DNA from: Corynebacterium phoceense
Lineage (GTDB): Bacteria > Actinomycetota > Actinomycetes > Mycobacteriales > Mycobacteriaceae
NCBI RefSeq assembly: GCF_900092335.1
Contig: NZ_LT596208.1
Coordinates: 100,789-150,515, forward strand
Direction of reading: 5' to 3'
Length of the DNA stretch: 49,727 nucleotides
The position numbers and the translations under genes are program-made. Position 1 is the first letter of the stretch; each line of letters starts with the position of its first letter. This document shows positions 2,472 through 43,385 of the stretch, one piece after another. The notes beneath the pieces are model-generated. The model had not been told where the DNA came from, searched no databases, and saw only the letters and a list, made by a program, of their open reading frames with translations.

Positions 2472-2500
2472 GTCGTAGGTTCGAATCCTGCCCCCGCTAC
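2472..2500 (+). repeat. att copy 1: 3' end of tRNA-fMet (junction between the two elements)
   Basis: A 29-bp sequence identical to 43281-43309. It contains the T-arm (GTAGG, TTCGAAT, CCTGC) and the 3' acceptor strand CCCCGCTAC, followed by CA, so an encoded CCA is complete. No 5' tRNA half precedes it, so this is an attachment core and not a gene. It lies between the end of the integrase A element and the left end of the 40.8-kb element. Confidence 0.85.
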
Positions 2501-2510
2501 CAACTTCCTG

Positions 2511-4979: not shown

Positions 4980-7649
4980 ATGACTACACCTACATCCCAT
5001 GACATGTTCCTATTTCAACAGCTTGATATGTTCTATGATTTTGGGAAGCGGCACCCCTTGCCCGCGCATCTCAAGAACAATTTGAGCGATCGTATCTCCC
5101 TGCGTGAATATCAGGAACGTGCTTTCTCCAACACTTTGGAGTACCTGGGGAACACTCAGTTCTCAAAGAATCGTCAAACTCACTTGCTGTACCACATGGC
5201 AACTGGGTCCGGGAAGACGGTGATGATGGCAGGGCTGATTCTTCACTACTACAGCCTGGGGTATCGTAACTTCATTTTCTTTGTTAATCAGTCCAACATC
5301 ATCGAAAAGACTCGGTCCAACTTTCTGGATGCCTCGTCAAACAAGTATTTGTTTGCAGAGGCTATCGAGATCAATGGTGTCCGAGTTCGGGTAAACGAAG
5401 TTTCTAACTTCGCTAGCACCGATCCTCATGCCATAAATCTGTGCTTCACAACCACTCAAAAGTTGCACTATGACTTCTTCGATGCGAAAGAAGACTCTCT
5501 CACCATAAGTGATTTTGAAGATACCCCTGTTGTCTTGATCTCCGACGAGTCCCACCATGTGAATACTCGCACCAAGAAGGCGACGAAGGCTGAGGCAGAA
5601 GAGGACAGGTCCTGGGAGTACGTTGTTAACACCGCGTTTCAAGCAAACCGGGAAAATGTCCTGCTTGAATTTACAGCCACTGTAGACCTACGCGACCCCA
5701 ATATCCTTGCCAAATACAAGAACAAGATTGTCTTTGACTATCCGCTAGCAAGATTCAGGGAGTCCGGTTTTACTAAGGACTTCAAGAATTACCAGTCTGT
5801 TCTTGATCCGTGGGGGAGAACGCTCCAAGCGCTCATTCTGTCGGAGTATCGCCGTAGCCTCTTCGCGGACCTCAAAGTCGCCGCCAAACCTGTGGTGCTG
5901 CTTAAGTCACAACGCGTCGATGATTCGCGGGATTTCTACGACGAGTTTTTCCAGCGCTTAAAGCGGCTAACGCCAGATGAAATTCGTGGGCTGGATACCG
6001 AAGGTCTGATCCACGAGGCTATAGAGTATTTCAGTGATAGGGACCCCAGTCTGCATTCCCTCTGCTTGAGTATTCAGCACGCTTTTGATGAAGAAAACGC
6101 CATCATCATGAATGGCAAGACGGATAACTCAGCTGAGAAGCAGCTGGCCGTGAACTCCCTGGAAGACGTCTCGAACCCCTACCGGATCATCTTCACTGTT
6201 GACATGCTCAACGAAGGGTGGGACGTACTAAATCTCTATGACATCGTGCGGCTCTATGAAACACGTCAAGGCGGTAAAGCAGGAAAGCCTGGTGCTTACA
6301 CCATCAAAGAAGCGCAACTTATCGGTCGAGGAGCGCGCTACTTCCCATTCCTGCCCGACGATGGAGAGCTTGACATAGAACCCGATGAAGCGTTTGTCCG
6401 TAAGTACGATTATGACCTAGGCAGTCCCTATCGACTGTTGGAGACTTTGTTGTACCACTCAAAGCAGGACTCCAAATACATCAATGAGTTGCGCACAGCT
6501 CTTCGAGGCACCGGTCTTCTTCCTCCAGTCGGCGTCGAGGTCACGTATGAGCTGAAAGAGTCCTTTAAGAAATCTACTTTCTTCCATGAGGCCCAGTTGT
6601 TCAGCAACAGACGGGTCGAGGTATCACGCGACGAAGTTACTGCACTAGACAATCGGGTCAAATCAGCGCTGTACCAAGTCGATGTCCGACGGACACCTTC
6701 TACGCTCAACAGTCTGCTGGATGAGGAGCCTTCTGCGCGTACAGCTGTATCCAGCACTAAGAGCGTGATTCAGCGCAAGAAGATCTCTGACATCCCTGCG
6801 AACATCCTGCTCGGGACCCTCGCTCGGTTCGACGGACTACGTTTCGATGTTCTAAGGCACTACTTTCCGAGCCTGAAGAGTGCTCACGAATTCGTGTCTT
6901 CAAACGCTTTTCTAGGCGACGTAGAAATTGTGTTCCAGTCCGACAACCGCGACCTAACCGCTGTTGACCTCGTGGAGGGACTTTCCAAGGTGTTCGAGTC
7001 CGTGGCAAGGTACTTGGAAACGGTTCAAGTAGCGTATCGAGGTACCACCAAGTTCTACCCGAGGCGGTTGAGTGAAGTTCTGAGGGACAAGAAACTTCAG
7101 ATTTCGGAGGTCATTGAGGGCGGCTTCGGAGACAGCCAGACCCGTGATCAAAGTAAAGATCATTACGTGGATCTGGACCGTGCGGAGTGGTACGTGTTTA
7201 ATGACAACTTCGGTACCAGTGAAGAAAAGGCGTTCGTCAAGTATTTCGCAACAGTGGTTGAGGATCTTAAACAGGACTATGACGAGGTCTATCTGATTCG
7301 AAACGAACGTCTCGCTCCGCTGGCAATCTACTCTTTTGAGACCGGAGAACGGTTCGAACCAGATTTCCTACTGCTACTACGTAAAGACGGCGACGTCGTT
7401 TCGCAACAGCAAATCTATATCGAACCTAAAGGTGAACACTTACTAGAAACAGATCAGTGGAAGGAAGATTTCCTGCTTTCACTTGACGCCAACGCTATTC
7501 CTCACAAGGTCTACGTGGACAACACCGACTACCGGATCATTGGTCTTCCGTTCTTCAACGAGGAGAACAGAATGAGTGAGTTTAGTACGGCATTTTCCAG
7601 TGCCGTTGATCCAAACCGAAGCTCGCAAATCCCTGAGCAAGGTGATTGA
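4980..7649 (+). CDS. res: Type III restriction enzyme, Res subunit (helicase-nuclease)
   Basis: 889 residues, normal for Res. It is the ATP-dependent motor and nuclease that cuts unmodified DNA in complex with Mod. Seen in order: an early Q-motif-like region with LREYQERA, Walker A MATGSGKTV (about 73-81), DEAD-type box DESHH (189-193), an SF2 helicase C-terminal half with MLNEGWDV and QLIGRGARY, and a C-terminal PD-(D/E)XK nuclease (PDFLL about 795, then IEPKG). It starts 2 bases after mod, so the two are co-transcribed and translationally coupled. Res needs Mod for site recognition, so the mod frameshifts should silence restriction too. The serine recombinase gene overlaps or follows its stop directly. 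Confidence 0.93.
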   Translation: MTTPTSHDMFLFQQLDMFYDFGKRHPLPAHLKNNLSDRISLREYQERAFSNTLEYLGNTQFSKNRQTHLLYHMATGSGKTVMMAGLILHYYSLGYRNFIFFVNQSNIIEKTRSNFLDASSNKYLFAEAIEINGVRVRVNEVSNFASTDPHAINLCFTTTQKLHYDFFDAKEDSLTISDFEDTPVVLISDESHHVNTRTKKATKAEAEEDRSWEYVVNTAFQANRENVLLEFTATVDLRDPNILAKYKNKIVFDYPLARFRESGFTKDFKNYQSVLDPWGRTLQALILSEYRRSLFADLKVAAKPVVLLKSQRVDDSRDFYDEFFQRLKRLTPDEIRGLDTEGLIHEAIEYFSDRDPSLHSLCLSIQHAFDEENAIIMNGKTDNSAEKQLAVNSLEDVSNPYRIIFTVDMLNEGWDVLNLYDIVRLYETRQGGKAGKPGAYTIKEAQLIGRGARYFPFLPDDGELDIEPDEAFVRKYDYDLGSPYRLLETLLYHSKQDSKYINELRTALRGTGLLPPVGVEVTYELKESFKKSTFFHEAQLFSNRRVEVSRDEVTALDNRVKSALYQVDVRRTPSTLNSLLDEEPSARTAVSSTKSVIQRKKISDIPANILLGTLARFDGLRFDVLRHYFPSLKSAHEFVSSNAFLGDVEIVFQSDNRDLTAVDLVEGLSKVFESVARYLETVQVAYRGTTKFYPRRLSEVLRDKKLQISEVIEGGFGDSQTRDQSKDHYVDLDRAEWYVFNDNFGTSEEKAFVKYFATVVEDLKQDYDEVYLIRNERLAPLAIYSFETGERFEPDFLLLLRKDGDVVSQQQIYIEPKGEHLLETDQWKEDFLLSLDANAIPHKVYVDNTDYRIIGLPFFNEENRMSEFSTAFSSAVDPNRSSQIPEQGD

Positions 7650-7651
7650 TC

Positions 7652-8230
7652 GTGCTCATCGGTTACGCCCGTGTGTCCACGTCCAAGCAGGGGCAGAGTC
7701 TCGACACCCAGCGCGAGGCGCTCATTAACGCTGGGTGTGATGAAAACCACATCTACTCAGACACCATCTCGGGCACCAAATGGCAGCGGCCTGGCCTCGA
7801 TGACGCTCTCGCGTACATGCGCCCGGATGACACACTGGTTGTCGCGCGCTTAGACAGGCTCGGCCGCAGTCTCGCTGAGACGGTCAATACCATCGCTGAC
7901 CTTGCGGAACGTGATATCAACGTCAAAGTGCTCGAACCAGCGCTCGACACCTCGCGGCCTGCGGACAAGGTGGTCATTAACGTCATGGCCTCACTCGCTG
8001 AGTGGGAGCGCGACCTGCTGATCCAGCGCACACGCGAAGGCGTGGCACACGCCCGTGCACAGGGCAGGGTGGCTGGGCCGAAGCCGAAGCTCAGCGATGA
8101 GCAGGCGCAGGTAGCCAAAGAACTCATCGACGGTGGTAAGTCCGTGAGTGCTGTCGCTAGGACGTTCAACGTCTCGCGGCCAACGATCTATTGTGCCATC
8201 GAGCGTATGGAAGAACAAACCCAGCAGTGA
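7652..8230 (+). CDS. Serine recombinase (resolvase/invertase family)
   Basis: Small serine recombinase of the Pin/Hin/Tn3-resolvase type, 192 residues from GTG 7652 (AAGG about 10 bases upstream; a TTG at 7646 is an alternative). The nucleophile Ser is in GYARVSTS near the N-terminus, followed by the conserved RLDRLGRSL and WERDLL patterns. A C-terminal helix-turn-helix (about 145-190, VARTFNVSRPTIY) binds the recombination site. It catalyses inversion or resolution by a covalent Ser-DNA intermediate. It overlaps or abuts the res stop (7647-7649), so it is probably in the same transcript. A perfect inverted repeat just downstream is a candidate target. Such genes are often carried by plasmids to resolve multimers. 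Confidence 0.9.
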   Translation: MLIGYARVSTSKQGQSLDTQREALINAGCDENHIYSDTISGTKWQRPGLDDALAYMRPDDTLVVARLDRLGRSLAETVNTIADLAERDINVKVLEPALDTSRPADKVVINVMASLAEWERDLLIQRTREGVAHARAQGRVAGPKPKLSDEQAQVAKELIDGGKSVSAVARTFNVSRPTIYCAIERMEEQTQQ

Positions 8231-8234
8231 CTGC

Positions 8235-8284
8235 GTCGCTAGTGCTTGCACCCTGCTAGTGCACCCCAAATAAGCACTAGCGAC
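8235..8284. repeat. Perfect 12-bp inverted repeat after the serine recombinase
   Basis: GTCGCTAGTGCT (8235-8246) and AGCACTAGCGAC (8273-8284), 26 bases apart, with another CTAGTGCA between them. No T-run follows, so it is not a standard terminator. It starts 5 bases after the recombinase stop and could be its res/crossover site. Confidence 0.5.
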
Positions 8285-8398
8285 GCCCTGAGCACGCTGG
8301 GGTGCTGTACAGCGAAGATGGGTGGGGTACAGCCCGGCAAAGCCGGGACCAAATACGAGGATGACCGCATTTATCCGTATTTGGCAAGGAGTGTCCAC

Positions 8399-9424
8399 AT
8401 GTCCACTTATTCGCAGACCCTCACATCCCACGGCGATATTCTCGCGAATATCCCAGGTATTTTAGGCTTCTACCCACAAGACTCCCTGGTGCTAGCATTC
8501 TTCAAACAAGCGGAAGACTCACCGCAACTCGCCCTCAGTCCGCTTGCCCGGCTCGATCTTGACGACGTTGTGGAAACGTTGATCAACAACAAGGATCAGT
8601 TCACTACATGGTCTGAACACGCCAACACCGACGCCGTCATCGCCTACGTGGTCAACGAAGACCCATCTGCTGCAGATGAGCTGGCGAAGTTCCTGCTCAG
8701 CGAGGACTCGCCGCTACCAACAGTGCTTGCGATCATCCAAGTCTCTGAGATCGCTTCCGGGACTGGATGGTGGACTGTGTACCAGCAGTCAGACCTTTCA
8801 GCACCGAGCACAGGCGTAGTCAGCGAAGTGGCCAGCTCAGCTGCACTGCAGCAGATGGTTTTAGATACGGGACAGCTACCAGCCCTGTCTCGTGGTGAAC
8901 TAGATGAGCGCCTCAACAGTGCTGAACACGGTATCGACGAAGATGAATACCAGGACATCATCACCGACGTTGAGGCTTACGAAAAAGAGATACACTTCCT
9001 CCGCGATGATCTCCAGCTTGAGTATGAAAAGGCGACAGGGGGTATCGCTGATCCTGCTAACACACGAGCCATTCGTGCAGCACTGAGGTGTTTTACCACA
9101 CCCATGCTGCGGGACCCGTTGCTTGCCGCGCTGCTGGATGAGCCGGAGCAGGGTCTGGCGTTCGCAGAGCTTCTCATGCGAGTGGTACCGCAGGATTGGC
9201 TCAAGATGCGCTCGCAGATAACCGCGACCGTGGCTGTACTGGCTCAAGCGACAGGCCAAACAGGATTTGCAGGCGTAGCCGCGAACAAAGCTACAGAGTT
9301 GAGCGAGACAGAGAATTTCCCTTCTCTAGTGGCTAGATCCATCAACCTTGGTCTGGGCAGCAAGCTGATTACAAGCGTCAAACAGGGTGCAGCGAGGGCG
9401 CACTATCTTTTGTTCGATGCTTAA
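8399..9424 (+). CDS. DUF4192 family protein
   Basis: 341 residues. The N-terminus DILANIPGILGF, then QDSLVL, is the signature of DUF4192, a family confined largely to actinobacteria and common on their plasmids and chromosomes; its biochemical role is unknown to me. I chose ATG 8399 because AAGGA lies 8 bases upstream and homology begins there. The longer in-frame extension to 8246 runs through the inverted repeat and is unlikely. No signal peptide or membrane segment is visible. It is followed by a strong terminator and lies in a run of plasmid-type maintenance genes (recombinase, ArdA, SSB). Confidence 0.8.
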   Translation: MSTYSQTLTSHGDILANIPGILGFYPQDSLVLAFFKQAEDSPQLALSPLARLDLDDVVETLINNKDQFTTWSEHANTDAVIAYVVNEDPSAADELAKFLLSEDSPLPTVLAIIQVSEIASGTGWWTVYQQSDLSAPSTGVVSEVASSAALQQMVLDTGQLPALSRGELDERLNSAEHGIDEDEYQDIITDVEAYEKEIHFLRDDLQLEYEKATGGIADPANTRAIRAALRCFTTPMLRDPLLAALLDEPEQGLAFAELLMRVVPQDWLKMRSQITATVAVLAQATGQTGFAGVAANKATELSETENFPSLVARSINLGLGSKLITSVKQGAARAHYLLFDA

Positions 9425-10485: not shown

Positions 10486-10911
10486 ATGTCCAACCCATTC
10501 AACGCAGGCGTCATCACCGGCAATGCAGCACGCGCTCCCAAGCTGTTCGAGCACGCAAACGGCAGCGCAACGGTGAAACTCAATGTCTATGCGCGCAACG
10601 CCTTCAAAAACAAGTCCACCGGCGAGGTTGAGTCCGAGATGGTTGAGCTGACCGGCTACGTCAAGGACGCTGATAACCCCGGCGTCTTTAGCTGCATTCA
10701 TGCCGGAGATCGCATTGCAGTGAGCTACTCGCTGAAAACCGATGTCTTTACCGACAAGGAAGGCGTGAAGCACTACCCGCTGGTCGCACGAATTGATACT
10801 GTGCAGCTCATCGACTCTAAGGCTGAGTCTGCGGCGCGTGCTGCCCGTCGAGGCAACGACGCTGCGGCAGCCGCACTGGCAGGCGCTGGCACCAATGAGA
10901 CACCGTTCTAG
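10486..10911 (+). CDS. ssb: Single-stranded DNA-binding protein (SSB-like)
   Basis: 141 residues, shorter than typical chromosomal actinobacterial SSB. One OB-fold: AGVITGNAARAPKLFEH, VKLNVYARNAF, then VELTGYVKDA, GDRIAVSYSLKTDVF, and a Lys/His strand VKHYPLVARIDTVQL, followed by an Ala/Arg-rich tail and the end NETPF. That end resembles the Asp-Asp-Ile-Pro-Phe tip by which SSB recruits partners, but keeps only one acidic residue. AAGGAG lies about 8 bases upstream. It would coat single strands during transfer or replication of the element; the polymerase/helicase encoded at 34.6-38.8 kb is a natural partner. A strong terminator follows. Confidence 0.85.
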   Translation: MSNPFNAGVITGNAARAPKLFEHANGSATVKLNVYARNAFKNKSTGEVESEMVELTGYVKDADNPGVFSCIHAGDRIAVSYSLKTDVFTDKEGVKHYPLVARIDTVQLIDSKAESAARAARRGNDAAAAALAGAGTNETPF

Positions 10912-16269: not shown

Positions 16270-16295
16270 GATTCATCCCTGGATATACGTCAATG

Positions 16296-16572: not shown

Positions 16573-16680
16573 ACCAAGTGTGAGCTAAGAATCTGGGTAT
16601 TCCGACTAGTCAGGGTCAAACCGCGTGGCTGACCGTAATTCGTATTGTGGCTCGCGCCTCTCAAGCGCAAAGGAGTATCC

Positions 16681-17310: not shown

Positions 17311-17317
17311 GACGGCT

Positions 17318-19317: not shown

Positions 19318-19344
19318 TTGTGACTGTTAAGTAAAGAGGCCCCG

Positions 19345-22835: not shown

Positions 22836-22838
22836 GGA

Positions 22839-25686: not shown

Positions 25687-25777
25687 GATGTTTCCTTTCA
25701 GATTAGGCTGCTTGTGCGTAGCACTGGGTTGGGGGCAAGTGGCTTGTCAGGTGAGTGAAACAGGTGTGGCATGAACT

Positions 25778-31243: not shown

Positions 31244-32188
31244 CTAATCGTCTCTGGTCAGTTTCAAGGCAAGGTAGAACATAGGACCGACGATGAGGCC
31301 AATGACTGTCATTGTGACAGTTAGCCACCCTATCGTCGAGTACCATGTCTCAGCATCAGCGACGTGACCCCAAAGTGCCCCCAGGCCGTCAGGGAAACCG
31401 AGGTACGTCATAACGCCTACGCCAAGACCGCCAATGGCCACGAATCCCACACTTGCCATAAGGGCTGCTAGGACAGACCAGAGCGCGAACCTTTTGGTGT
31501 TATCTATCCGATCAGTGTCTTTCTGTATGGCTTCGGCCAACTTCTGTCGCTCTGCGCTCACCTTCTCCAGCTCTCTCGAGAGTCGGGCACTCTCCTTCTC
31601 CAATCGTGAAACGGCTGCGTTGACCGTACTGTCGAGGTCGGTCTGGACCCGCTCGAACGACTCGTTAACCACGGGCCTAATACCGGAACTCAGGCAAGCC
31701 GTTAACTGCCTGGTTAAGCCGCGCGAGACGCTCATGGCGCTTTCGTCGCTGAGCCTCACTGGGTGTTTCGCGACTTCGATTGTTGCTCGGTACATCTTCG
31801 CCAGATCGAGCAGTGTTTTCTGAATGTTCCGCATAGCCGGACCCATATCTGTCAGCATGTTGACCAGGCTGCTGATGGTTTCTGCGACTGCTTTCTGCGT
31901 TTGGTCGTACTCCTTTGTGCCGACCGTTGTCCGAGCGAGCTTCTTCAGCTGCTTGTTGAGCTTCTGCTGCTGCTCGGACAATGTGTTCAGTTCCCCCTCC
32001 GAGGCCGCGATGCTCGAAATCCTGCTCTCCAGTGCGTCCATCGCTTTGAGTGCGGTGGCCATCTTCGCTGAGTCCTTCGTGCGCTGCTCCTGCATAGTCT
32101 CCAGGGCTTCCAGGACGGGGTCGAGGCTCTCTTCGAGGTACGTCTCCAGGGCCTGCTGTTGTTGTCCGGTAAGCGCTTGTTTGATCAC
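31244..32188 (-). CDS. MobB-like coiled-coil membrane protein, nested in the relaxase gene
   Basis: 314 residues from GTG 32188 (GAGGAAGA upstream). Long coiled-coil regions (about 20-105 and 195-235, for example SEQQQKLNKQLKKLART and SRLEKESARLSRELEK) are followed by two membrane helices near the C-terminus (SVLAALMASVGFVAIGG and VTMTVIGLIVGPMFYLAL). It begins inside mobA in another frame and overlaps it by 512 bases, the arrangement of MobA/MobB in mobilizable plasmids. It probably tethers the relaxosome to the membrane or to a foreign coupling protein. The last part lies beyond the relaxase stop. Confidence 0.75.
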   Translation of the reverse strand: MIKQALTGQQQQALETYLEESLDPVLEALETMQEQRTKDSAKMATALKAMDALESRISSIAASEGELNTLSEQQQKLNKQLKKLARTTVGTKEYDQTQKAVAETISSLVNMLTDMGPAMRNIQKTLLDLAKMYRATIEVAKHPVRLSDESAMSVSRGLTRQLTACLSSGIRPVVNESFERVQTDLDSTVNAAVSRLEKESARLSRELEKVSAERQKLAEAIQKDTDRIDNTKRFALWSVLAALMASVGFVAIGGLGVGVMTYLGFPDGLGALWGHVADAETWYSTIGWLTVTMTVIGLIVGPMFYLALKLTRDD

Positions 32189-33182
32189 TGTCTTCCTCGC
32201 TTTCTTTTAGTTTCTTCAGTCGTTCAATTCGCGTCTGGCGCGCCAGTGCTGCCGCCAGTTGTGCCTGTGCCTCCGCGATACGGTCGCGCAGGCCGTTGGT
32301 GGTGTAGCCAGGCCCAAATTTCGAGCCAGCGTCTGCCGCTTTCCGCCTGCGACTACGACCCTTAGGCGTGCGTGTCGTGTAGACCGCTTCCTCGCCGTCG
32401 TCACCGATCAAGCCGATGCTGAGATCGCCGTCTGTTGACCTCAACGAGAGGTTGTACTCGGCGGCGATCTCGTGGGCCTTCTGTAGTCCATCTGGGGCGG
32501 TGAGGACCCGCTCGTCACTCACAAGCGCATCAACGCGTTTACGCAAGAAATCCGCCCAGGTTTCACCTGTCAGTTCGTCGATCTCCAGACCAGTTGAGTC
32601 GACGCTCTTGCCATCTCGGAGTGCCAGTCGCTCGGCACGTCGGAGCTTGACAAAGCCCTTCGGTTGCAAAGTTCTCATGCCCCAGTCACGCATGACGGAA
32701 TCGTTAATAGCTTTGACCGCGTGCCAGTTGCTCGTACGCCTAGGCGCTGCCTTTCCAGTATTCAGGTCGTGGTTGAGCAAGATGATGTGATTATGGACGC
32801 ATCGTGACTTGCCGTCAGTGTGGGTGGCGATGACGTACGGTGTGCCGGGAGCTAACCTCTGCGCAAGGTCCGCGCCCATGGCATTGGCCTTCTGCACGTC
32901 GGTGGAATTGTCCCCGTCGAGTTCGTCACGCGACCAGGATTGAACCAGCGTAATGGCCTGGTTGCTGCGACTGCCGTAGCGACCCATAATCTCGCGTCCG
33001 GATTCGATGAACTCGAGCCCGGCCCAGCGCCCGCCGCTGTCGTTTTTCATTTCTTCGCCGCAGACGACGGTCAGCGCTGCCGCACGGACCCGGCCAGCTT
33101 TCGCATTCGCTCGTGTGCCGTAGACCGCGTAGACGACGGGCGAGGAGAGACTCTTTGACCTATCGACTGTTGTGACGGACAT
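31677..33182 (-). CDS. mobA: Relaxase (MobA/VirD2-like, conjugative mobilisation)
   Basis: 501 residues from ATG 33182. It nicks oriT and pilots the strand to the recipient. The N-terminal nuclease domain shows the three-His metal site in ATHTDGKSRCVHNHIILLN; the nucleophile Tyr is likely in VVYAVYGTR near the N-terminus. A basic region and a long hydrophilic tail (about 330-500, Arg/Glu/Gly rich) follow. The start overlaps the mobC end by 23 bases, and the 3' third is overlapped by the MobB-like gene. A longer start at 33227 exists but lies within mobC. No transfer-pore genes accompany it. Confidence 0.9.
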   Translation of the reverse strand: MSVTTVDRSKSLSSPVVYAVYGTRANAKAGRVRAAALTVVCGEEMKNDSGGRWAGLEFIESGREIMGRYGSRSNQAITLVQSWSRDELDGDNSTDVQKANAMGADLAQRLAPGTPYVIATHTDGKSRCVHNHIILLNHDLNTGKAAPRRTSNWHAVKAINDSVMRDWGMRTLQPKGFVKLRRAERLALRDGKSVDSTGLEIDELTGETWADFLRKRVDALVSDERVLTAPDGLQKAHEIAAEYNLSLRSTDGDLSIGLIGDDGEEAVYTTRTPKGRSRRRKAADAGSKFGPGYTTNGLRDRIAEAQAQLAAALARQTRIERLKKLKESEEDSDQTSAYRTTTAGPGDVPRREPRPRPGSPGDYAGAAHEGLSEDGHRTQSDGRTGEQDFEHRGLGGGTEHIVRAAAEAQQAAEEARSDNGRHKGVRPNAESSRRNHQQPGQHADRYGSGYAEHSENTARSGEDVPSNNRSRETPSEAQRRKRHERLARLNQAVNGLPEFRY

Positions 33183-33552
33183 ATCGGCCCACCGCCTCTT
33201 TGAGTCGCCGCAAATCCTCCTGTGCAAGGCGAATGATGCCCATCAACTCCGCATCACCGGACGTGTGTGCGAGACGCGAGAGCTGATTGATGTTTACACC
33301 GATGCTGTTGATCTCTTTCCAGAGCCGCCTTACATCGTTTTGGAAATCCTCGGGAGGGTCGTTCATTCGTTCAGCCCACCCACGTGGTAGGCGGTCGGAA
33401 AGGGTATATATCGCCCCCCGCATGACCTCAGCAGGAGTCAGGTTCGTTCGCTTGGCGACCTCACTGACAACTTCCCACTGCTCAGCGTTGAGACGCAGCG
33501 TTAACCGCTTACTTACCGGGCCATCTAACTTCAATTTTTTCGTATCCTTCAT
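33160..33552 (-). CDS. mobC: MobC-like mobilisation accessory protein
   Basis: 130 residues. An N-terminal ribbon-helix-helix-like part (SKRLTLRLNAEQWEVV) is followed by the MobC hallmark INSIGVNINQLSRLAHT. Such proteins bind oriT and help the relaxase melt and nick it. The gene is 25 bases from the oriT-like hairpin region and overlaps mobA. The ribosome site is weak (TAAAAG). Confidence 0.9.
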   Translation of the reverse strand: MKDTKKLKLDGPVSKRLTLRLNAEQWEVVSEVAKRTNLTPAEVMRGAIYTLSDRLPRGWAERMNDPPEDFQNDVRRLWKEINSIGVNINQLSRLAHTSGDAELMGIIRLAQEDLRRLKEAVGRYVRHNSR

Positions 33553-34123: not shown

Positions 34124-34462
34124 TTAGAACTCCACCTCAACATCGTTACGGCTCTTTAACGGTGACCTCTGCGAGGTCACCGTCCGGGACACCATCGCCT
34201 GCTTGAGGCGACGGTTATTGGTTTTCTGGCGCGACCTCTGAGAGACTTTGATGATGTCCTTGGCGGCGCTTTGGACATCACGTTCGGCTGAAGCAGCGGG
34301 CGCTCCTTCAGCCACCTCGCGCATGTCGTTCTCGGCTTGCGTGGCCTTTGTGGCCAGCCGCTGCCAGTCAGCGCCGAGCACACCAGCTGTCTCGGGTGTT
34401 AGTGGTTGCTTTGTTCGCGCGCCAGTCACGCTTTCTGTCGCTGTTGAAGTCAGGTTGCCCAT
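34124..34462 (-). CDS. Hypothetical protein of the replication region (112 aa)
   Basis: Good AAGGAG site 9 bases before ATG 34462. A predicted helical protein (ATKATQAENDMREVAEGAP) with a basic C-terminal stretch (RSRQKTNNRRLKQAM) that could bind nucleic acid. Lies 93 bases downstream of the polymerase fusion on the same strand, so probably the same operon. Family not recognised. Confidence 0.65.
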   Translation of the reverse strand: MGNLTSTATESVTGARTKQPLTPETAGVLGADWQRLATKATQAENDMREVAEGAPAASAERDVQSAAKDIIKVSQRSRQKTNNRRLKQAMVSRTVTSQRSPLKSRNDVEVEF

Positions 34463-34555: not shown

Positions 34556-37500
34556 TCAGTCCTTACAGCCAGCCCAGGACTCAGCAGGGCCTGCGAAGTC
34601 TGACAAGACAGGTACTTCTACGCCGTCCTTGCCGGGCAGCGTGACAGCGTTGAAGGCAGCCATAACTGTCTGCGTGATCTCGTCAGCACGGTCACGCGGG
34701 ACCGACAACACAATCTCGTCGTGGACGAAGATGCGGACCATCTCCAAGACCTCCTGCGGGAGGTTCATTACACCTTCGAGGAACACGTCTCGGGCCGTCC
34801 CCTGGCCGTAGGCGGCAGGGGCTTGGGTGTACGCCGAGCCACGGCTGACAGCCACACGGCGGCCGAACCCCGTGGCAACCCAACCAAGTGCCTCGGCGTG
34901 CTTTCGTAGGTGTTCTTTCAAGTGTTCAAGCCCCGGAAACTCGAAACGCAGACGATCTAGCTGCTTCTGTGCCTCCATCACAGGGATATCGGCGTACGCG
35001 GCAAAACCTTGCGCGCCCATGCCGTAGTTCATGGCATGGGCTAGCTTCTTCGCATCAGGCCTGCGAGACGCATCGTCGAAGACGCGAATAGCCATCTCGG
35101 TGTGGGCGTCGCGACCGGGAGCAAACAGCGCAGCATAGGCAGGATCGCCGCTCCCTGCTGCCAGGCATCGCGCGTCAATCTGCGAGAGATCTACAGAGAT
35201 CAACACCTCGCCTGCGTTGTCCGGGAGGATCATCTCGCGCTGGTGGATGAGTCGCTCATTACGCTTGCCAAAAACCGCCATGGCGGGTTTCGTGGTACTG
35301 AGACGGCCTGTGACTTGTTCTGCCCGGATACTCGGATACACCCTATCTCCGTGAAGGTTTTCCATGACCGTCGAGGCCGGTGTGGAAGACCTAAGCAGTT
35401 TCTCCATCTTGGCTGCCAGCTCGACGATCTCGGGCACGTTTGCGTGCTGTTCGGCAAGCTGGCTAAACGCCTTCGCGCTGATACTGATCTCATCCGTGTC
35501 CGTGAGTAGCGCAGCAACGCCGAAACTATCTAGATAGTCCGAGATAGCCTGTTTGCCTTCCTTGGTCATCCAAGGCTCTTTCCCCTTATTGGGGATACCG
35601 ACCACATCGACAAGCCAGGTGCGAATCTCAGATTTGACGGCTGCCTCTTCTGCCAAGGCCTCTTTGACCTTGACCATGTCCACTCGAACGCCGTGAGACT
35701 CCACAACACTGAGGGCGTGCATCTTCTCGTGTTCACGCTGCAGATACTCTGCGCTGACAGCTTCCAAGGCAGCAGGCAGCATTTTCTCGTAGACAGCGGA
35801 GGTTGAGCGTACGTCCTGTAGTGCGTAAGCAACGTACTCGGCGTTATCCACGGGAATCTTGTCAAACCCACCGAACCGTTCCTCCAGGGCCTCAAGAGCC
35901 GTCTTACCGTCGTCCAGCAACTTGCCGTCCACACCACAGCGCTTAGCTACGGCATTGAGCTTGTATTTGAGGCTGCGGTCCCCACCTGCAGCCAGCTGGG
36001 AGAGGACCATCGTGTCATGCACCTTGCCAGCGTCGATGAGCGCCTTGTCATCGAGGCCATAGAGCCGTCGCAGTGCAGCCAGGTCAAACTGCACAACGTT
36101 GTGACCAACGATGGTGTCGGCAGTCTCCAGCAGCGGAATAAGTTCACCAGCGATGTCGGTGGTGGTCACAGGCTCAGCACCGTTGATCGAGTAAGCAGCA
36201 AGACGCACGAATCCTGGATCATCTGTGACCTGCACAACACCTGCGTCACCCGTTTCAAGGTCGAACACGACGGTTGTACTGTCGGCGGGTGCTGAGGGTA
36301 CTGCCTGCCCGTCTGCTGTTTCTGCAGGTGTTGGTGTTGGTCCCGGTGTCGGCGGAGGAGTACCACCGCTGCCACCGTCACCACCGTTACCGCCATTGCT
36401 ATCGTCACCGTCGTCATCGTCAGGATCGACACGTACGACCTGGAACCGCTTCGTATGGTTAACCATCCCAGCGCTTCGCATGACGTAACCATCGAAGGGC
36501 CTGTCTTGGAAACGGGTGTACATACGTCCAAGGCGCTGGGCCGTGGCGTTATCAATTGTCCAAAGCCCAGAAGGCAAAGGAACAAACTGACCGCCGACGT
36601 TGCGCGCTTCAATAGCCTTCTGCGCGTCGAAAGCACGGAATGGCTTGCCGTCGAAAACCTCGTCTAGCCACGCGATATGGGCAAGATCTTCCAGCTCGCT
36701 GTCGTCCGACTCCTTGCGCCACTCGCGCACACCCTCCATGAGGTCACTACGACCTGCGAAGGCGAGAATGCCACCTACGGTTAAATACCACTCTTCAAAA
36801 CTACCTACGTCATATCCAGAAGGAGGTGCGGGTTTACCGGCAACAACCCAGGCACGGATCATCGTGTGAGCAGCCTCAAGAAGCCTTTTTCGATTCTGGA
36901 ATACCCATTCTTTGAGGTTTGGATGCTTAAAATCATCACGTGCCTCAGGGTTGACTAAATCCGAATGTAAAATAATAGGAATGGTACGGCGCGACATGTC
37001 TTTTCGGGCTGCAACCTTCTTGCCAATAGCAAACACACACGCACTGTTCGGTACTGACTTGTGTTCAGACTTGCCGAGGATGCGACCAGAGTAGACCTCG
37101 GCGGTGATCATCGAAGCCAACGCTTCGCTCTCCAGCCCCCCACTAGCCTCATCGAACATTAACGTGGTGCGGCCGGACAAAAGCGCAGAATACAGCACCT
37201 TTTCCATCTCTTCTTCGCTGACGGGAATCTTTTGAAACTGTGCAACCCGACCCGTCGCAATAATGCTGGCAACGTGCAGACATAGGTTTTTGCCAGTACC
37301 CTGGTTATTTGCCGAGATGAGGCCCAAGGGGGCCGTTGAACACACAGACCTTGTAAGCAATGTAAGAGGCATGGACACCGCGCGGGTGAGATCGGCCTCT
37401 GAAGCAAACGGGAAGTCACAGAACGGCTCCAACAGCGTCTCCAGCGCTTCCAGAGCATCGTCAGCGGTAGGAGCGTCAGGTACGTGGAAGCCTTCGAGAT

Positions 37501-38785
37501 CGTCTGAAAGATCCAAGAACTTACGCGTCTCAGCGTTGTAGCCAGACTCACAGACAACATTTCCACTCTCCGAGAGGATAGGGGCTTCGGCAATACCCTC
37601 AATGGAGGGATACTTCGACACACGATTCTTGTTAAAAATCACAGCGGCCTCAGTCATGCCGAGTGGCCTGACCACTACTTTCTTAGCCATGTGTTGTTCG
37701 ACCTGAATCGTCTGCGCAGCAAGGTCAATAGCATAGGGAAGATCAACGGTGTCAAGGCTCTTACGTCCGTCTCGTTTCTCCAAGGCCATGAGCTTGTCGT
37801 TGGTACGAAACAGTCTCGTACCTGCGTATTTGTCGTAAACGGCCTTATCCACGGTGTCGTAGAAGACCGACGGCTCAAGATCAGAGTTGACGGATGGCTT
37901 CATACTGCCCGCCTGCGGAGTTGATGCAGTTTGCGAGGGTGCCTGAGTCATCGAGGGCCGCTTCTGACAGGGCTTATCGCCTGCCTGCTTAATCCACAGC
38001 TCAAGCATCGTCTCGCGACGATCCGCGGGGATATTACCGAGCACGTCATCGATGCCTTGCTTGCCGCCGCCAGGAACATTTACAAAACGAACGGGGGTCG
38101 CACCCCACCGGCGGCACAGTGTGCCAAGTCCCTGGGCACCGTCATAGACCAGACGGTTTGCTGCAGCATCAGCGTCTGCGATGATGTAGGTGGGCAGGCC
38201 ACCAACAAGTTGGAATGCGGGGGAAGGGCCAGCGTCACCACCCTGCCAGGACGTAATGCCGGGCAGAGCGTACACAGCAGTGTCATCGTCAGTGATCGAC
38301 ATCACGGCCAGGGGTTGTTTCGTACCCTCAACCAGCAGCACACGGCGTGTGCCAGCATGGACTGCGCGCCGCTCGATCAGCGAAGGTACGGGATGGCCGG
38401 AGTCCTTCGAAGGACCGATGTACTTGGGTGCACGACCATCTGCCAGTACTACAGTGCCGGGCTGAGGTTTTACCTGCCAGGTCGTTCCTTTATCTGCTTC
38501 TTGAAGTTCATAGACCAGGAATGGGGCTGCGTCTGGGAACCTGCCGATCCACTGCAGCGGCTCGGGTAGATCCTCAGTGGCATAAGCCGTGTATGCACCA
38601 CAGCTTGCGATGACCTCATCAGAGATACCAGAGGCACGCAGCTCAGCGAGGTGCTCATCCGACAGGGAATCTAACTCTAAACCTTTACTTGAGGTTGATG
38701 GTTTAGTGTCAACGGTAGTAATATCGGTGTTAGTGGTTTTGGTGCCCTCATCAGCGGTGATGGGGGCGCTTTCTTTTGTCTCCAT
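34556..38785 (-). CDS. TOPRIM-like / AAA+ helicase / 3'-5' exonuclease / family A DNA polymerase fusion
   Basis: 1409 residues from ATG 38785, which overlaps the HTH gene's stop (TAATG). (1) About 60-280: DUF3854/TOPRIM-like fold with VEGTKQ (152-157) and ADADAAANR (203-211), as in replicative primases. (2) About 310-780: P-loop helicase, Walker A ISANNQGTGKN (490-500), Walker B TLMFDEASGG (541-550). (3) Linker 788-835, Asp then Gly/Pro rich. (4) 836-1000: DnaQ-like exonuclease, FDLE (841-844), GHNVVQFD (894-901), and D991. (5) 1010-1409: Pol I-type polymerase, motif A VDLSQIDAR (1198-1206), motif B K1246-K1247 to YG 1254-1255, motif C HDE (1355-1357). All catalytic residues I can check are present, so it could be a near self-contained replicase for the excised or transferred element. 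A catalytic primase active site is not proven. Confidence 0.9.
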   Translation of the reverse strand: METKESAPITADEGTKTTNTDITTVDTKPSTSSKGLELDSLSDEHLAELRASGISDEVIASCGAYTAYATEDLPEPLQWIGRFPDAAPFLVYELQEADKGTTWQVKPQPGTVVLADGRAPKYIGPSKDSGHPVPSLIERRAVHAGTRRVLLVEGTKQPLAVMSITDDDTAVYALPGITSWQGGDAGPSPAFQLVGGLPTYIIADADAAANRLVYDGAQGLGTLCRRWGATPVRFVNVPGGGKQGIDDVLGNIPADRRETMLELWIKQAGDKPCQKRPSMTQAPSQTASTPQAGSMKPSVNSDLEPSVFYDTVDKAVYDKYAGTRLFRTNDKLMALEKRDGRKSLDTVDLPYAIDLAAQTIQVEQHMAKKVVVRPLGMTEAAVIFNKNRVSKYPSIEGIAEAPILSESGNVVCESGYNAETRKFLDLSDDLEGFHVPDAPTADDALEALETLLEPFCDFPFASEADLTRAVSMPLTLLTRSVCSTAPLGLISANNQGTGKNLCLHVASIIATGRVAQFQKIPVSEEEMEKVLYSALLSGRTTLMFDEASGGLESEALASMITAEVYSGRILGKSEHKSVPNSACVFAIGKKVAARKDMSRRTIPIILHSDLVNPEARDDFKHPNLKEWVFQNRKRLLEAAHTMIRAWVVAGKPAPPSGYDVGSFEEWYLTVGGILAFAGRSDLMEGVREWRKESDDSELEDLAHIAWLDEVFDGKPFRAFDAQKAIEARNVGGQFVPLPSGLWTIDNATAQRLGRMYTRFQDRPFDGYVMRSAGMVNHTKRFQVVRVDPDDDDGDDSNGGNGGDGGSGGTPPPTPGPTPTPAETADGQAVPSAPADSTTVVFDLETGDAGVVQVTDDPGFVRLAAYSINGAEPVTTTDIAGELIPLLETADTIVGHNVVQFDLAALRRLYGLDDKALIDAGKVHDTMVLSQLAAGGDRSLKYKLNAVAKRCGVDGKLLDDGKTALEALEERFGGFDKIPVDNAEYVAYALQDVRSTSAVYEKMLPAALEAVSAEYLQREHEKMHALSVVESHGVRVDMVKVKEALAEEAAVKSEIRTWLVDVVGIPNKGKEPWMTKEGKQAISDYLDSFGVAALLTDTDEISISAKAFSQLAEQHANVPEIVELAAKMEKLLRSSTPASTVMENLHGDRVYPSIRAEQVTGRLSTTKPAMAVFGKRNERLIHQREMILPDNAGEVLISVDLSQIDARCLAAGSGDPAYAALFAPGRDAHTEMAIRVFDDASRRPDAKKLAHAMNYGMGAQGFAAYADIPVMEAQKQLDRLRFEFPGLEHLKEHLRKHAEALGWVATGFGRRVAVSRGSAYTQAPAAYGQGTARDVFLEGVMNLPQEVLEMVRIFVHDEIVLSVPRDRADEITQTVMAAFNAVTLPGKDGVEVPVLSDFAGPAESWAGCKD

Positions 38786-38991
38786 TAGGCTGCACCCCCG
38801 ATCGTGGGTTGTGCGTTGAGCCAAGCATCAAGATATTTGACGCGATAGAGGATTTGTCTACCAGATTTAATGTAGCGGGGACCGCGTCCCTCGGCACGCC
38901 AGTTTGCAAGAGTGCCGCGCGACAAACCAAGCATTTCAGCAGCGGCTGTCGGCTTAACAGAAAGACGGGGAATATCTACATGGGTACTCAC
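38785..38991 (-). CDS. Small helix-turn-helix protein (excisionase/MerR-like)
   Basis: 68 residues with a winged HTH_17 motif: TAAAEMLGLSRGTLANWRAE, GRGPRYIKSGRQILY. This is the form of phage and element excisionases and of small plasmid replication regulators. Stop overlaps the replicase ATG, so it probably regulates that operon or the excision step, or both. It is 3 kb from the integrase, with an ISL3 element inserted between. Confidence 0.85.
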   Translation of the reverse strand: MSTHVDIPRLSVKPTAAAEMLGLSRGTLANWRAEGRGPRYIKSGRQILYRVKYLDAWLNAQPTIGGAA

Positions 38992-39660
38992 GATTAAGTG
39001 TCTCCAGACATGAAAAATTCACCCCAGCCTGCGCAGTTTGCGCTTAGGAGCTATTTCATGTCCGGTTCTAATCCGTGATTCCACTTTCATTTTCGAGGAC
39101 CGATAAATAGGGGTAGGACCGATAAATGGGACCTCGCTGGCGACACCCGGAAGGCTAACAACCACCCTATCCCATTGCGGGCCATTTGACAAGGGGTAGC
39201 AGTCTGGGTTGAGGCAGGCGTAAATGCACCCCCTAGCGCATGTTCGTCGCGTAGTTCTGCATCGTTTCGTTGCTTGAGGCTCAAATAATAAAAAAGGACG
39301 AAACGCTTGACCGGTGGTTTTGTAAAACTACGAAAATCAAAAATGCGAAACAAGCTACAGGGCTGCGACCTGTGTGGATCGGCATGATCGCGGTGGTGTT
39401 TCGTAATTCAGCCACTTTTCGGTCCAACTCTTTCAAAGTAGAGAAGCATAGACGTTGTGAGTGACGTGGCTTGCGTATGGCAGATGTCGAAACGGGGGCA
39501 GGGAAATAAGGGGGATAAGGGGTAGGATTCAGCGCCTGCCGTGTGGAAATTTCAAAAAACACATTAGTTGGTAAATACCAATGAGTGTGTTTTTTCATTT
39601 TCTCTAGAGTTAGGGTGAAACAAGCCCCGTATCCCCCCGGATTCCCTAATTTCATGACGG
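38992..39660. other. Non-coding region upstream of the replication operon (possible origin/control region)
   Basis: No credible gene in 670 bases. Two direct repeats AGGACCGATAAAT (39096-39108 and 39115-39127), 19 bases apart, lie about 110 bases upstream of the HTH gene and look like iterons or operators. An AT-rich block is at 39281-39296. A long imperfect hairpin (39554-39595; AAAAAACACA with TGTGTTTTTT, inner palindrome TTGGTAAATACCAA) could be a terminator in both directions. Confidence 0.5.
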
Positions 39661-41130: not shown

Positions 41131-41138
41131 GTATTATG

Positions 41139-41507
41139 GTTCCGAGGCGCTCTTGGTGGCACAGGTCATGCAAAGGTGCTCGCTATGGGGGTTGACGTGG
41201 AGGCTGGTCAATGTGTGGCATAACACACAAACAGTGCAAGGTGTCTTACTTCGATTAGAGGCCCGTCAACGGGTGAGAAATAGTGAAACACAATGCATGT
41301 CCGCTGTTCGAGCTATGTTTTCGCGTTTCGTAAATTGCTTCTTTTCGCTATATGTATATCGCTGCCTCGCGTCCTCGTTCGGCTGCCGTGTGTGCTTCGT
41401 GGTTTCAATGTTAGTGCCTCCACTGTTGCGTGTAATGGGGTTTTCTCTTGAGCGGTGTGGTAGAACACTGCTAATCGACGGCTGTGAACCATTTTCGACC
41501 GTTATAA
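41139..41507. other. Intergenic stretch right of the ISL3 element
   Basis: About 370 bases continuing the region that was interrupted by the IS. Frames here are short or merely run out of the IS end. I see no convincing gene, hairpin or repeat. Confidence 0.5.
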
Positions 41508-41891
41508 CTATTTGATCAGGGGTGGAAACCATTTATCAACGGGGAGATTGGTCTTAGAGGGTAAAGGCCAGTGGAAGCCCGCATAGGCAGTGGGCGCCAA
41601 TTCAGCTATAAGGCCTGGCGCAGGCAGTCGTCCATATCGAATCACGCGTAGGCGATCTGTGAGCTTCTTCTTCGCTAGTTTCAGTTCACGCCTGGCCGAG
41701 GCAAGCGCTCTATCGCCATGTGCGGTCTTAATCTGAGTAGTTAACTCCTCGAGGCGAGCATTGATGATCTTGAGGTCGCGTCCGAGCGCTGCGCGCTCAG
41801 CTTCATATTCTTCCTCAGGGGTTGCGCCATCATCGAGCCGGAGCTGTACGAGTTCGGGGGAGTCCCAGGGGGCTGGGCGTTGTGTGTTCAT
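41508..41891 (-). CDS. Hypothetical coiled-coil protein divergent from the integrase (127 aa)
   Basis: Begins MNTQRPAPWDSPELVQLRLD; the middle (EEEYEAERAALGRDLKI to AKKKLTDRLR) is a strong amphipathic helix with Lys/Arg. No membrane segment. Divergent from the integrase with 56 bases between starts, a position often held by an excision or regulatory protein, but no helix-turn-helix is visible. Family not recognised. Confidence 0.6.
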   Translation of the reverse strand: MNTQRPAPWDSPELVQLRLDDGATPEEEYEAERAALGRDLKIINARLEELTTQIKTAHGDRALASARRELKLAKKKLTDRLRVIRYGRLPAPGLIAELAPTAYAGFHWPLPSKTNLPVDKWFPPLIK

Positions 41892-41934
41892 GTTTACCAG
41901 GCTACCAACATTCGAACCATTACAAAAGTGGTGC

Positions 41935-41948
41935 TATAGTCTTGTGTA
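41935..41948 (+). promoter_or_regulatory. -10 box for a leaderless integrase transcript
   Basis: TATAGT at 41935-41940 lies 7 bases before the integrase ATG (41948), so transcription would start at or next to the A of ATG. There is no Shine-Dalgarno sequence before this start. Leaderless mRNAs are common in corynebacteria. Confidence 0.5.
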
Positions 41949-43174
41949 TGGTAAAGAGGCAACAAGCATCACGCGCACCACTACAGCCGGGCGAAGATAC
42001 TGTTGAGCGAGTCCTGGACACGCTCTCACGAGGGCCGTTTGACGCGTTTGTCACCGTCAAGACTTGGGAAGGGCGCTCCAAACGCATTCACATCCGCGCG
42101 AAGACGAAAGGTGAATTTCGGACCAAGGCACGAGAAAAGATTGATGTTATCCTCAATACGTCAGCGAGTAGCTGGACGAAGGCGCAACGCCTTACGACCT
42201 TTATGGATGAGGTGAGTGAACCAGCGGTTAAAGCCGCGCGCCTGAGATTGAACACGAGAAAGCGCTATGAACTAGCCTTATCACAGCTACGCCGCCATCT
42301 TGATGGACTCACGATCGGCCACGCCGTGAGATTTAGGACTCTTGAAAAGGCGTTGCAGGACATAGGGACAGGCCATGGTGCCGAGTCCGCGCGACAAGCG
42401 CGCACGGTCTTAAGCAAGTACGTGTTAGACCAACTCATCCGTGAAGGGGTTATCGAACATAACCCACTGCGAGGCATATCAATAGATCTCGGGGACACTC
42501 GCAAGGGGAACAAGCCTAAACAATCGCATGCGCTTACGGATGCTCAGTATGACGCTGTTGTTGATCATCTTTTGGTGCGAGACACAGCAGGGCCTATACC
42601 GCCGGGAACGGATAGGCGGCACACATCTATTAGGAAGCATGAGTTAACGGTCGCTCTAACTATTCTCCAGGCCGGTACAGGATTGCGTATTAGTGAAGCG
42701 CTCGCGCTTACCCGTGAGGATGTAACTATCACGCAGAACTCACTGGCAATAACAGTTCAGGCGGAACGGTCAAAGACGCATAGGGGACGTACCGTGCCGA
42801 TGCTGGACAAAAGATGCGAAAAGTTCTGGCGAGAGCGAATCGAAACAATTGGTCCCGGTGATCCGCTTATCCCGGCGCCGGGGGATGTGCACTTGCACTG
42901 GCGGACGGACAACGCCGTTAAGGCATGTGCGGCGCTCTATAAGGACATTGGCGTTCAACTGGAAGATGAGGTTGTTTCTTCTATGAGATCACACGCTTGG
43001 CGCACGGTACTCAACAACCGAGCAATTGCTCGCGGAGTTCCCGCCGAGATTCGCAGCGCATTCTTTGGTCACACTGAGGCCATGAACGCCCGAAACTACA
43101 CGGACCTTACCGACGTTTCGGCCATGCAGTCGGCACTTGAAGGTGGTGCACTAGATGGTGCACTAGAGGGATGA
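41948..43174 (+). CDS. Tyrosine recombinase (integrase B of the mobilizable element)
   Basis: 408 residues. An AP2-like arm-binding N-terminus (GPFDAFVTVKTWEGRSKRIH), a core-binding domain (about 75-170), and a catalytic domain with Arg in TGLRISEAL, HAWR (SHAWRTVLNN), FFGH, and the nucleophile Tyr in ARNYTDLTD. It inserts and, with a helper, excises the element at the tRNA-fMet 3' end. The extreme C-terminus (EGGALDGALEG) is encoded by the repeat that reappears at the other end of the element, so coding sequence and arm-site DNA overlap. ATG 41948 was chosen for the TATAGT box; the 126-base upstream extension lacks a ribosome site and overlaps the divergent gene. Confidence 0.92.
   Translation: MVKRQQASRAPLQPGEDTVERVLDTLSRGPFDAFVTVKTWEGRSKRIHIRAKTKGEFRTKAREKIDVILNTSASSWTKAQRLTTFMDEVSEPAVKAARLRLNTRKRYELALSQLRRHLDGLTIGHAVRFRTLEKALQDIGTGHGAESARQARTVLSKYVLDQLIREGVIEHNPLRGISIDLGDTRKGNKPKQSHALTDAQYDAVVDHLLVRDTAGPIPPGTDRRHTSIRKHELTVALTILQAGTGLRISEALALTREDVTITQNSLAITVQAERSKTHRGRTVPMLDKRCEKFWRERIETIGPGDPLIPAPGDVHLHWRTDNAVKACAALYKDIGVQLEDEVVSSMRSHAWRTVLNNRAIARGVPAEIRSAFFGHTEAMNARNYTDLTDVSAMQSALEGGALDGALEG
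43145..43166 (+). repeat. 22-bp repeat shared with the left end (integrase arm-type site?)
   Basis: GGTGCACTAGA plus TGGTGCACTAG, itself two copies of GGTGCACTAG, identical to 2570-2591. It lies within the last codons of the integrase, 115 bases from the right att core; the left copy lies 70 bases inside the left att core, in the same orientation. Confidence 0.6.
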
Positions 43175-43280
43175 TTCTGGATGATTCTAAATGGTTCTAA
43201 ATGATCGAAAATGCCTCTAAACAGCATGGTCAGAATCGAATAATGCCTGTTAGGCTCGAATGTAATCCGATAACCCAGAG

Positions 43281-43309
43281 GTCGTAGGTTCGAATCCTGC
43301 CCCCGCTAC
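43281..43309 (+). repeat. att copy 2: 3' end of tRNA-fMet (right boundary)
   Basis: Identical to 2472-2500 over 29 bp. To its left the tRNA likeness extends further (ATAACCCAGAG, the 3' side of an anticodon stem with the CCC typical of initiator tRNA), but no anticodon or 5' half follows upstream. To the right the bases are AAAG, so CCA is not encoded. It is an att remnant, not a tRNA gene. Confidence 0.85.
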
Positions 43310-43318
43310 AAAGTTCTT

Positions 43319-43349
43319 AAGTCCCTCTCCTTCGGGAGAGGGACTTTTG
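43319..43349 (+). terminator. Rho-independent terminator right of att copy 2
   Basis: AAGTCCCTCTCC (43319-43330), loop TTCG, GGAGAGGGACTT (43335-43346), then TT: a 12-bp perfect stem. Probably the original chromosomal terminator of the tRNA-fMet gene. Confidence 0.9.
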
Positions 43350-43385
43350 ATGTTTTCTGAACTTTCGGGCTAGGGGGGCTAGGGG

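Follow-up and report, generated by a model that had tools for sequence, protein, structure and literature searches.

A phage-type one-polypeptide replicase that probably serves an integrative mobilizable element of Corynebacterium

The closest full-length database match to the subject of this study, a predicted replicase of 1409 amino acids (aa) encoded in an apparent integrative mobilizable element (IME) of Corynebacterium phoceense, is Pas55 of the Actinoplanes phage phiAsp2. Pas55 (1415 aa) has the same domain order, aligns over 97% of the query with 29% identity (E 2e-139), is also the top structural match and contains DUF3854 and DNA_pol_A by Pfam. Together with the fused viral homologues it differs in belonging to phage genomes with a terminase and without PF03432; the fused viral copies also form a separate group in a tree of the N-terminal module. 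Streptomyces phages such as TP1604 carry homologous parts in the same order, but in two adjacent genes (primase and DNA polymerase I), and their primase-helicase differs in having a Pfam-recognised D5_N/DUF5906. A 1446-aa protein of the Streptomyces plasmid pS1D4-14.2 holds DUF3854, D5_N, DUF5906 and DNA_pol_A in one chain; however, tblastn aligns only its exonuclease-polymerase part (39% of the query), and the plasmid is typed as non-mobilizable and has phrog_2 (terminase) matches. The gene compared with these systems lies in a stretch of 49,727 nucleotides of contig NZ_LT596208.1, called the window hereafter.

Further likenesses are described in four papers. The OS3173 polyprotein of Aquificae viruses joins a helicase-like part, an exonuclease and PolA in one protein that is split in some relatives (PMC7689252); it differs in carrying DUF927 and in coming from hyperthermophilic viruses. 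PREX of Plasmodium combines primase, helicase and polymerase in one polypeptide that is cleaved (PMC9631997), but is an organelle enzyme processed after import. Both were likened to the window protein by published description only. The SCCmec module CCPol-MP-Cch2 brings a family A polymerase, priming and helicase together for mobile-element replication (PMC7581432); however, it consists of three proteins, and the polymerase primes with MP instead of a TOPRIM domain. The OS3173, PREX and SCCmec systems are precedents in that related modules replicate mobile elements or an organelle there. The plasmid protein CyRepA, a further precedent, has an N-terminal DUF3854 followed by a helicase-like domain and works as a plasmid Rep (PMC10079941), but it has no polymerase and carries a DEXDc domain.

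From sequence and model comparison, we propose that the window protein is probably a phage-type one-polypeptide replicase, carried by a Corynebacterium IME and serving to replicate that element. Coordinates are given in the window, G000 denotes the genome that holds it, and other G- and L-numbers denote comparison genomes and loci. An earlier note on this DNA, which did not state the strand, had claimed a single 1409-residue frame with a TOPRIM-like part, helicase, hinge, exonuclease and family A polymerase in this order. Translation of the minus strand upheld the claim: the frame runs uninterrupted from an ATG at 38785 to the stop codon at 34556–34558, with 0 internal stops, and both the domain list and its order were borne out (Table 1). 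An alternative TTG start at 38824 would lengthen the protein by 13 aa. The plus strand of the same interval contains stops throughout.

The C-terminal half was identified by sequence searches. Pfam DNA_pol_A (PF00476) matched residues 1096–1379 (E 1.1e-37), and a PHROGs DNA polymerase family covered 833–1409 (9e-92). Solved structures match the replicase by sequence only from residue 974 onwards (Klenow fragment, 2.6e-23). Motif residues were located at D842/E844, N896/D901 and Y987/D991, which we take to be the three exonuclease motifs, and at D1199, R1242/K1246/Y1254 and D1356/E1357 (stretches 1242–1255 and 1355–1357), presumably polymerase motifs A, B and C. Judged by these sequence features, the C-terminal half is a family A DNA polymerase with a proofreading exonuclease.

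For the N-terminal half, PHROGs matched a DNA primase at 92–279 (2e-25) and primase/polymerase as well as unknown families within 374–708. Pfam searched up to E 1 found no DUF3854 in the window replicase; in Pas55 this domain clears the Pfam cut-off (E 4e-8), and the G028 homologue has a match below it. As a PDB profile search with the N-terminal alignment returned histone matches only, we turned to fold comparison. Residues 1–835 were aligned with ten homologous sequences found on genome or viral contigs (11 sequences in all) and folded by AlphaFold2, resulting in a model with a mean predicted local distance difference test score (pLDDT) of 79.9 and a predicted template modelling score of 0.54. 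Confidence was low at 1–36, 280–294 and 789–835; the last stretch is disordered in the model, in agreement with the flexible Asp/Gly/Pro hinge that the earlier note had placed at 788–835.

VIA-align superimposed residues 37–288 on the RNA-polymerase domain of B. subtilis DnaG (5guj; Z 15.1, 220 residues, root-mean-square deviation (rmsd) 5.5) and on Aquifex DnaG (2au3; Z 14.8), and residues 39–271 on the T7 gp4 primase domain (6n9u; Z 13.6). Residues 294–693 matched the SaPI5 primase-helicase (7ola; Z 14.1, 313 residues, rmsd 5.6), and MPXV E5 (Z 12.9) and NrS-1 (Z 11.9) also aligned with the helicase part. Whole-model Foldseek TM-scores were low (TMq 0.16–0.28 for the matches listed), since single domains were compared with a multi-domain query. 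In a library of viral structures the first match was Pas55 (E 5.8e-67). Structure prediction thus found both a TOPRIM fold and a P-loop ATPase in the first 780 residues, whose absence the earlier note had named as refuting its reading. The earlier note had described the N-terminal part as either a primase or a DUF3854 accessory fold; because the match extends over the whole DnaG/T7 RNA-polymerase domain, the model favours the primase. E153, D204, D206, K499, D545 and E546 do not vary among the 11 aligned sequences, phages included; we take them to be the TOPRIM residues (E153, D204/D206), the Walker A lysine (K499) and Walker B (D545-E546). On the predicted model, the fold of the helicase part is SF3/D5-like, and its active site is atypical. 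Recognisable catalytic residues, which had been claimed for helicase, exonuclease and polymerase alike, were confirmed for the latter two; in the helicase K499 and D545-E546 are present, but Walker A and sensor 1 depart from the canonical form.

To assess selection we compared nonsynonymous (dN) and synonymous (dS) divergence with the nearest relative, G152, which is 80% identical in the codon alignment. For the whole replicase dN was 0.126 and dS 0.94 (dN/dS ~0.13), and dN was lower than dS in each segment, including the helicase (0.16 vs 1.50, dN/dS ~0.11). In the comparisons with G063 and SN15 dS was near or at saturation, which makes those ratios rough. Every segment of the replicase is under purifying selection by this sequence comparison with G152, and conservation together with dN/dS rules out a chance open frame.

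We then surveyed 242 Corynebacterium genomes, one per species. The N-terminal module was detected in 18 of them, in 11 of which it shares one open frame with PF00476 (G000, G028, G063, G088, G096, G112, G152, G159, G166, G175 and G190). Five relatives are split or broken: the parts are adjacent genes in G015 (polymerase further broken), G122 and G170 (polymerase in two pieces), G127 has four pieces in different frames, and G084 retains a partial fusion in a 1128-aa frame. In G032 the locus meets a contig end, and G212 has the module without a polymerase beside it. G033 (L025 9896–13130) retains only a C-terminal polymerase remnant, and the place of the replicase is occupied by a 922-aa protein that matches nothing in Pfam or NCBIfam. 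A genome scan yielded 12 loci, six of them in Corynebacterium; the others were split, with two in Cryobacterium, a single locus each in Nocardioides, Nesterenkonia and Helcobacillus, and a weaker match in a Streptomyces. PF03432 is present in three of these six non-Corynebacterium genomes, and beside the locus only in Nesterenkonia. On viral contigs, a first scan with the whole protein as query gave one weak locus. Eleven viral-contig loci were collected. One is the SN15 element; of the others, seven have the parts fused, two have them split, and one is a partial match. For the ten besides SN15, the records of seven contain a phrog_2 match and none contains PF03432.

The uniqueness implied by the earlier note was therefore rejected, as the same order occurs in a phage, a Streptomyces plasmid and 11 Corynebacterium elements. 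The other finding that it had named as refuting, that this exact order is already known from a replicase family, was made in part, through Pas55, the pS1D4-14.2 protein (by Pfam) and these elements. Among the literature matches listed we found nothing relevant on Pas55 or phiAsp2, no named mobile-element family of this kind, and no title on Corynebacterium islands, IME replication or eccC integration that describes this element. In a posterior mean site frequency tree of 28 N-terminal modules, the fused Corynebacterium copies group together and also take in G032 and G212, whereas the seven fused viral copies form a group of their own; the long branches of G159 and G032 are placed unsurely. The eight split copies fall on the viral side, and the split state needs at least two changes, in either direction, on this unrooted tree.

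Next, we looked at the genes downstream of the replicase. In the window, two small open reading frames (ORFs), MobC and a PF03432 relaxase follow on the same strand. A relaxase-type gene lies just downstream (~2 kb) on the same strand in all 11 intact fusions, five of them on weaker evidence. In G000, G028, G063, G096, G159 and G175 (6/11) it is PF03432 within ~2 kb. At the split loci of G015 and G122, PF03432 lies within 6 kb, and G170 has a homologue of the window relaxase. The same place is taken in G088, G112, G152, G166 and G190 (5/11), and in G127, by another, Mob_Pre-like protein family, in which we read a histidine motif, DESTPHIQF, by eye. Its trimmed N-terminal region matched Mob_Pre, which we take to be the MOBV relaxase family, in all four tested (G127, G152, G166 and G190; E 1.8e-4 to 2.6e-3). 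The longer protein gave nothing useful with Pfam and NCBIfam and only coiled-coil-type matches in a PDB profile search, and the G112 copy is shortened at the N-terminus. No relaxase was seen near the G084 or G212 loci. Since the replicases of the window and G152 are 79% identical and their relaxases belong to different families, replicase and relaxase modules recombine.

The claim of a mobilizable-element context was confirmed by MobC, the PF03432 relaxase, a tyrosine integrase and attachment (att) repeats that match the end of a tRNA-Met gene. The intact tRNA-Met gene lies at G000:C2:94024–94098, 6.7 kb left of the window. By sequence, the window element has the integrase, att repeats and relaxase of an IME; no conjugation-apparatus gene was noticed by eye among the window ORFs, for which no dedicated search was made. 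The replicase lies in a 40.8-kb unit (2478–43309), or in a 50-kb array if the outer att pair is the true one. This unit also contains a restriction-modification locus, a resolvase, a DUF4192 protein and a single-stranded DNA-binding protein (SSB). The genes for the last three recur close together in elements of G088, G127, G152 and G166, which agrees with the earlier suggestion of the SSB as a likely partner of the replicase. In the window this left backbone and the mob-replicase part are ~20 kb apart, with other genes in between; the resolvase and relaxase genes of G063 are separated by ~1 kb.

Many of the related elements occupy a different site. A gene that we take to be ESX-4 eccC, with FtsK_SpoIIIE domains in profile matches, lies near the replicase (in G033, near the remnant) in ten loci. 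Its frame is short in 10 of the 14 genomes tested (792–900 aa; pieces of 551 and 271 in G166) and long in G000, G096, G112 and G159 (1227–1397 aa; with one stop in G159); in G033 a further, longer copy lies elsewhere. The N-terminal part that these short frames lack was found 21–31 kb away on the same strand, with the replicase or its remnant in between, in G028, G063, G088, G127, G152, G166 and G033 (locus pairs L105/L076, L106/L077, L107/L084, L108/L081, L109/L021, L110/L087 and L111/L025). Some of the separated parts hold further stops, and in G032, G175 and G190 each part is on a contig of its own. In all seven junction pairs examined the break falls in the first P-loop codons, GSG-K-S-E, around the AA of the lysine codon as judged by eye; a script comparison of the two eccC junctions of an element found no long shared repeat. 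A large serine recombinase starts the element at the eccC N-terminal junction in 7/7 (PF00239 and PF07508 in all five tested, two by homology). In contrast, the window element sits in a tRNA-Met array with a tyrosine integrase, and the eccC frame of G000 is long, unbroken and on another contig. Among the literature matches listed, none describes eccC as an integration site.

The reading of the protein as the replicase of its IME is backed by the intact frame, the folds, the exonuclease and polymerase motifs, purifying selection, relaxase linkage, repeats upstream of the gene and the shared SSB-resolvase-DUF4192 backbone. Several observations weigh against it. The Walker A lysine is followed by N, G or E, never S/T, in all 11 aligned sequences (GKN in the window), and position 589 is Lys in the window vs the sensor-1 Asn in the other ten; the GN(N/Q) of relatives reads GKK in the window, with KK at residues 589–590 (37016–37021), and GKN in G152. 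The window helicase accordingly has neither a canonical GK[S/T] nor the sensor-1 Asn. Pfam found no zinc-binding domain in the replicase, and a single Cys (C62) precedes residue 224; such a domain is not required in every TOPRIM primase. The Mob_Pre matches fall below the Pfam cut-off. Upstream GTTTCGT/ACGAAAC repeats number three in the window and nine and ten in its G152 and G127 relatives, but show no enrichment over first-order Markov shuffles in the remaining 8 of 11 upstream regions. The split or broken relatives and the G212 module point in the same direction, and the window element holds insertion sequences and may be immobile now.

The atypical Walker A throughout the family, and the sensor-1 Lys of the window and G152, would also fit a replication accessory, in which the helicase or TOPRIM part is defunct and the protein acts as a polymerase only, for second-strand synthesis or repair after transfer; an excerpt of the CyRepA paper moreover calls the role of DUF3854 in plasmid replication unknown (PMC10079941). 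We consider this unlikely, given the invariance of E153, D204, D206, K499, D545 and E546, the helicase-segment dN/dS of ~0.11 and the match that spans the whole DnaG RNA-polymerase domain. It is also quite improbable that the gene is a remnant of a decayed prophage that came to lie beside a mobilization cassette by chance. Pas55 being the closest full-length match, the fused homologues on viral contigs, and a terminase-like match ~25 kb from the G028 replicase, a locus filed in IMG/VR as a viral contig (L047), speak for such an origin. However, the relaxase-type gene keeps its place and strand in 11/11 intact fusions, the tree parts the fused Corynebacterium group from the fused viral group, and the G028 terminase-like match lies outside the eccC-bounded unit. 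G000 has no phrog_2 match either, a poor negative test because matches elsewhere are mostly weak and the control matched in 11 of 14 genomes. Finally, a decayed passenger no longer used in G000, as an insertion sequence close upstream (39669–41130) and the broken relatives might suggest, has little probability in view of the uninterrupted 1409-aa frame and a dN far below dS vs G152.

As a replicase of its element, the protein would act after excision, or when a single strand enters a recipient. The helicase part, perhaps with the helix-turn-helix (HTH) protein encoded upstream, would load at the repeat region 39212–39637 and unwind it. The TOPRIM part would lay primers, which the polymerase would extend and proofread, while the SSB would coat the displaced strand and host ligase and repair would finish. 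The hinge may tether the polymerase to the primase-helicase, or may be a cleavage site, as is reported for PREX. Sequence and fold comparison establish the architecture, conservation, relaxase linkage and integration sites; priming, unwinding, origin use and autonomous replication are inferred.

Table 1. Features of the replicase and its element in the window
Feature	Coordinates	Strand	Basis
Replicase, primase-helicase-exonuclease-polymerase fusion, 1409 aa	34556..38785	-	frame, Pfam, PHROGs, phiAsp2 Pas55 homology, dN/dS
DnaG/T7-like primase domain with TOPRIM (DUF3854-like), residues 37–288	37922..38677	-	PHROGs, alignment, AlphaFold2 model, fold comparison
SF3/D5-like AAA+ helicase domain, residues 294–698, atypical Walker A (GKN) and sensor 1 (GKK)	36692..37906	-	alignment, model, fold comparison
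Asp/Gly/Pro-rich hinge, residues 786–835	36281..36430	-	pLDDT <50 from 789
3'-5' exonuclease domain, residues 836–1020	35726..36280	-	PHROGs, motifs
Family A DNA polymerase domain, residues 1021–1409	34559..35725	-	Pfam, PDB sequence match, motifs
HTH_17 protein, 68 aa, directly upstream of replicase	38785..38991	-	PF12728 E 6.8e-12; HTH genes at same position in relatives
Candidate origin, non-coding, GTTTCGT/ACGAAAC repeats (putative function)	39212..39637	.	conserved with G152 and G127
ORF, 112 aa, no Pfam match	34124..34462	-	conserved in G063 and G033
ORF, 139 aa	33653..34072	-	conserved in G063 and G033
MobC mobilization protein	33160..33552	-	PF05713, 25.0 bits, cut-off 23.2
Relaxase (MOBP-like)	31677..33182	-	PF03432 E 4.9e-12; motif HTDGKSRCVHNH
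SSB	10486..10911	+	PF00436 E 4.6e-9; homologues in four related elements
DUF4192 protein, shared backbone	8246..9424	+	
Small serine resolvase, shared backbone	7646..8230	+	
Tyrosine integrase, right end	41822..43174	+	PF00589 E 1.6e-9; homologue beside replicase in G096
Right att copy, 45 bp, exact 3' end of tRNA-Met	43270..43314	+	repeat comparison
Middle att copy (36 bp, 94% identity), which may mark the left end of the 40.8-kb unit	2472..2507	+	

The remainder of the element and its surroundings were viewed mostly by eye. The insertion sequence between the repeat region and the integrase belongs to the ISL3 family and has 29-bp perfect ends. At 15205–28504 we noticed cargo that by eye resembles a siderophore-type cluster, with two ABC exporter genes, a non-ribosomal peptide synthetase-like adenylation protein, a thioesterase, a glycosyltransferase and transport ATPases. 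A 217-aa protein encoded at 9439–10092 has homologues near the replicases of G015, G028, G122 and G159. The interval from the tRNA-Met gene to the middle att copy holds a second element, in which a seemingly different replication set of DnaB-N-like, helicase-like and SSB-like proteins was read by eye at −3769 to −1459 (G000:C2:97019–99329). Contig G000:C8 (L034, 3806 bases) is 100% identical to 41058–44863, covering integrase, right att copy and insertion sequence, and is either an assembly duplicate or a real second copy. Highly repetitive DNA coding for Arg/His/Asp/Pro at 1033–1974 and just left of the window on G000:C2, with unresolved bases left of the window, is probably a weak spot of the assembly.

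Taken more broadly, the related loci could equally well turn out to be, or not to be, a distinct, unnamed family of Corynebacterium IMEs that possess a whole one-polypeptide replisome and in which both the adjoining relaxase (MOBP- or MOBV-like) and the integration system can be exchanged. Most members would insert into the Walker A lysine codon of eccC by a large serine integrase and break the gene, and others, such as the window element, into tRNA-Met; they would form plasmid-like circles that replicate independently of the host replicase, and their excision would re-join eccC.

Single-polypeptide replisomes have been described in an organelle and in hot-spring viruses, and phiAsp2 contains one; here the arrangement recurs in relaxase-bearing bacterial elements. 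With a one-protein replisome, a mobilizable element would be able to replicate independently of the host replicase. The arrangement also offers a simple system in which a replication fork might be rebuilt from one purified protein. The eccC site raises the further question of whether these elements turn the ESX-4 type VII system of corynebacteria off and on reversibly.

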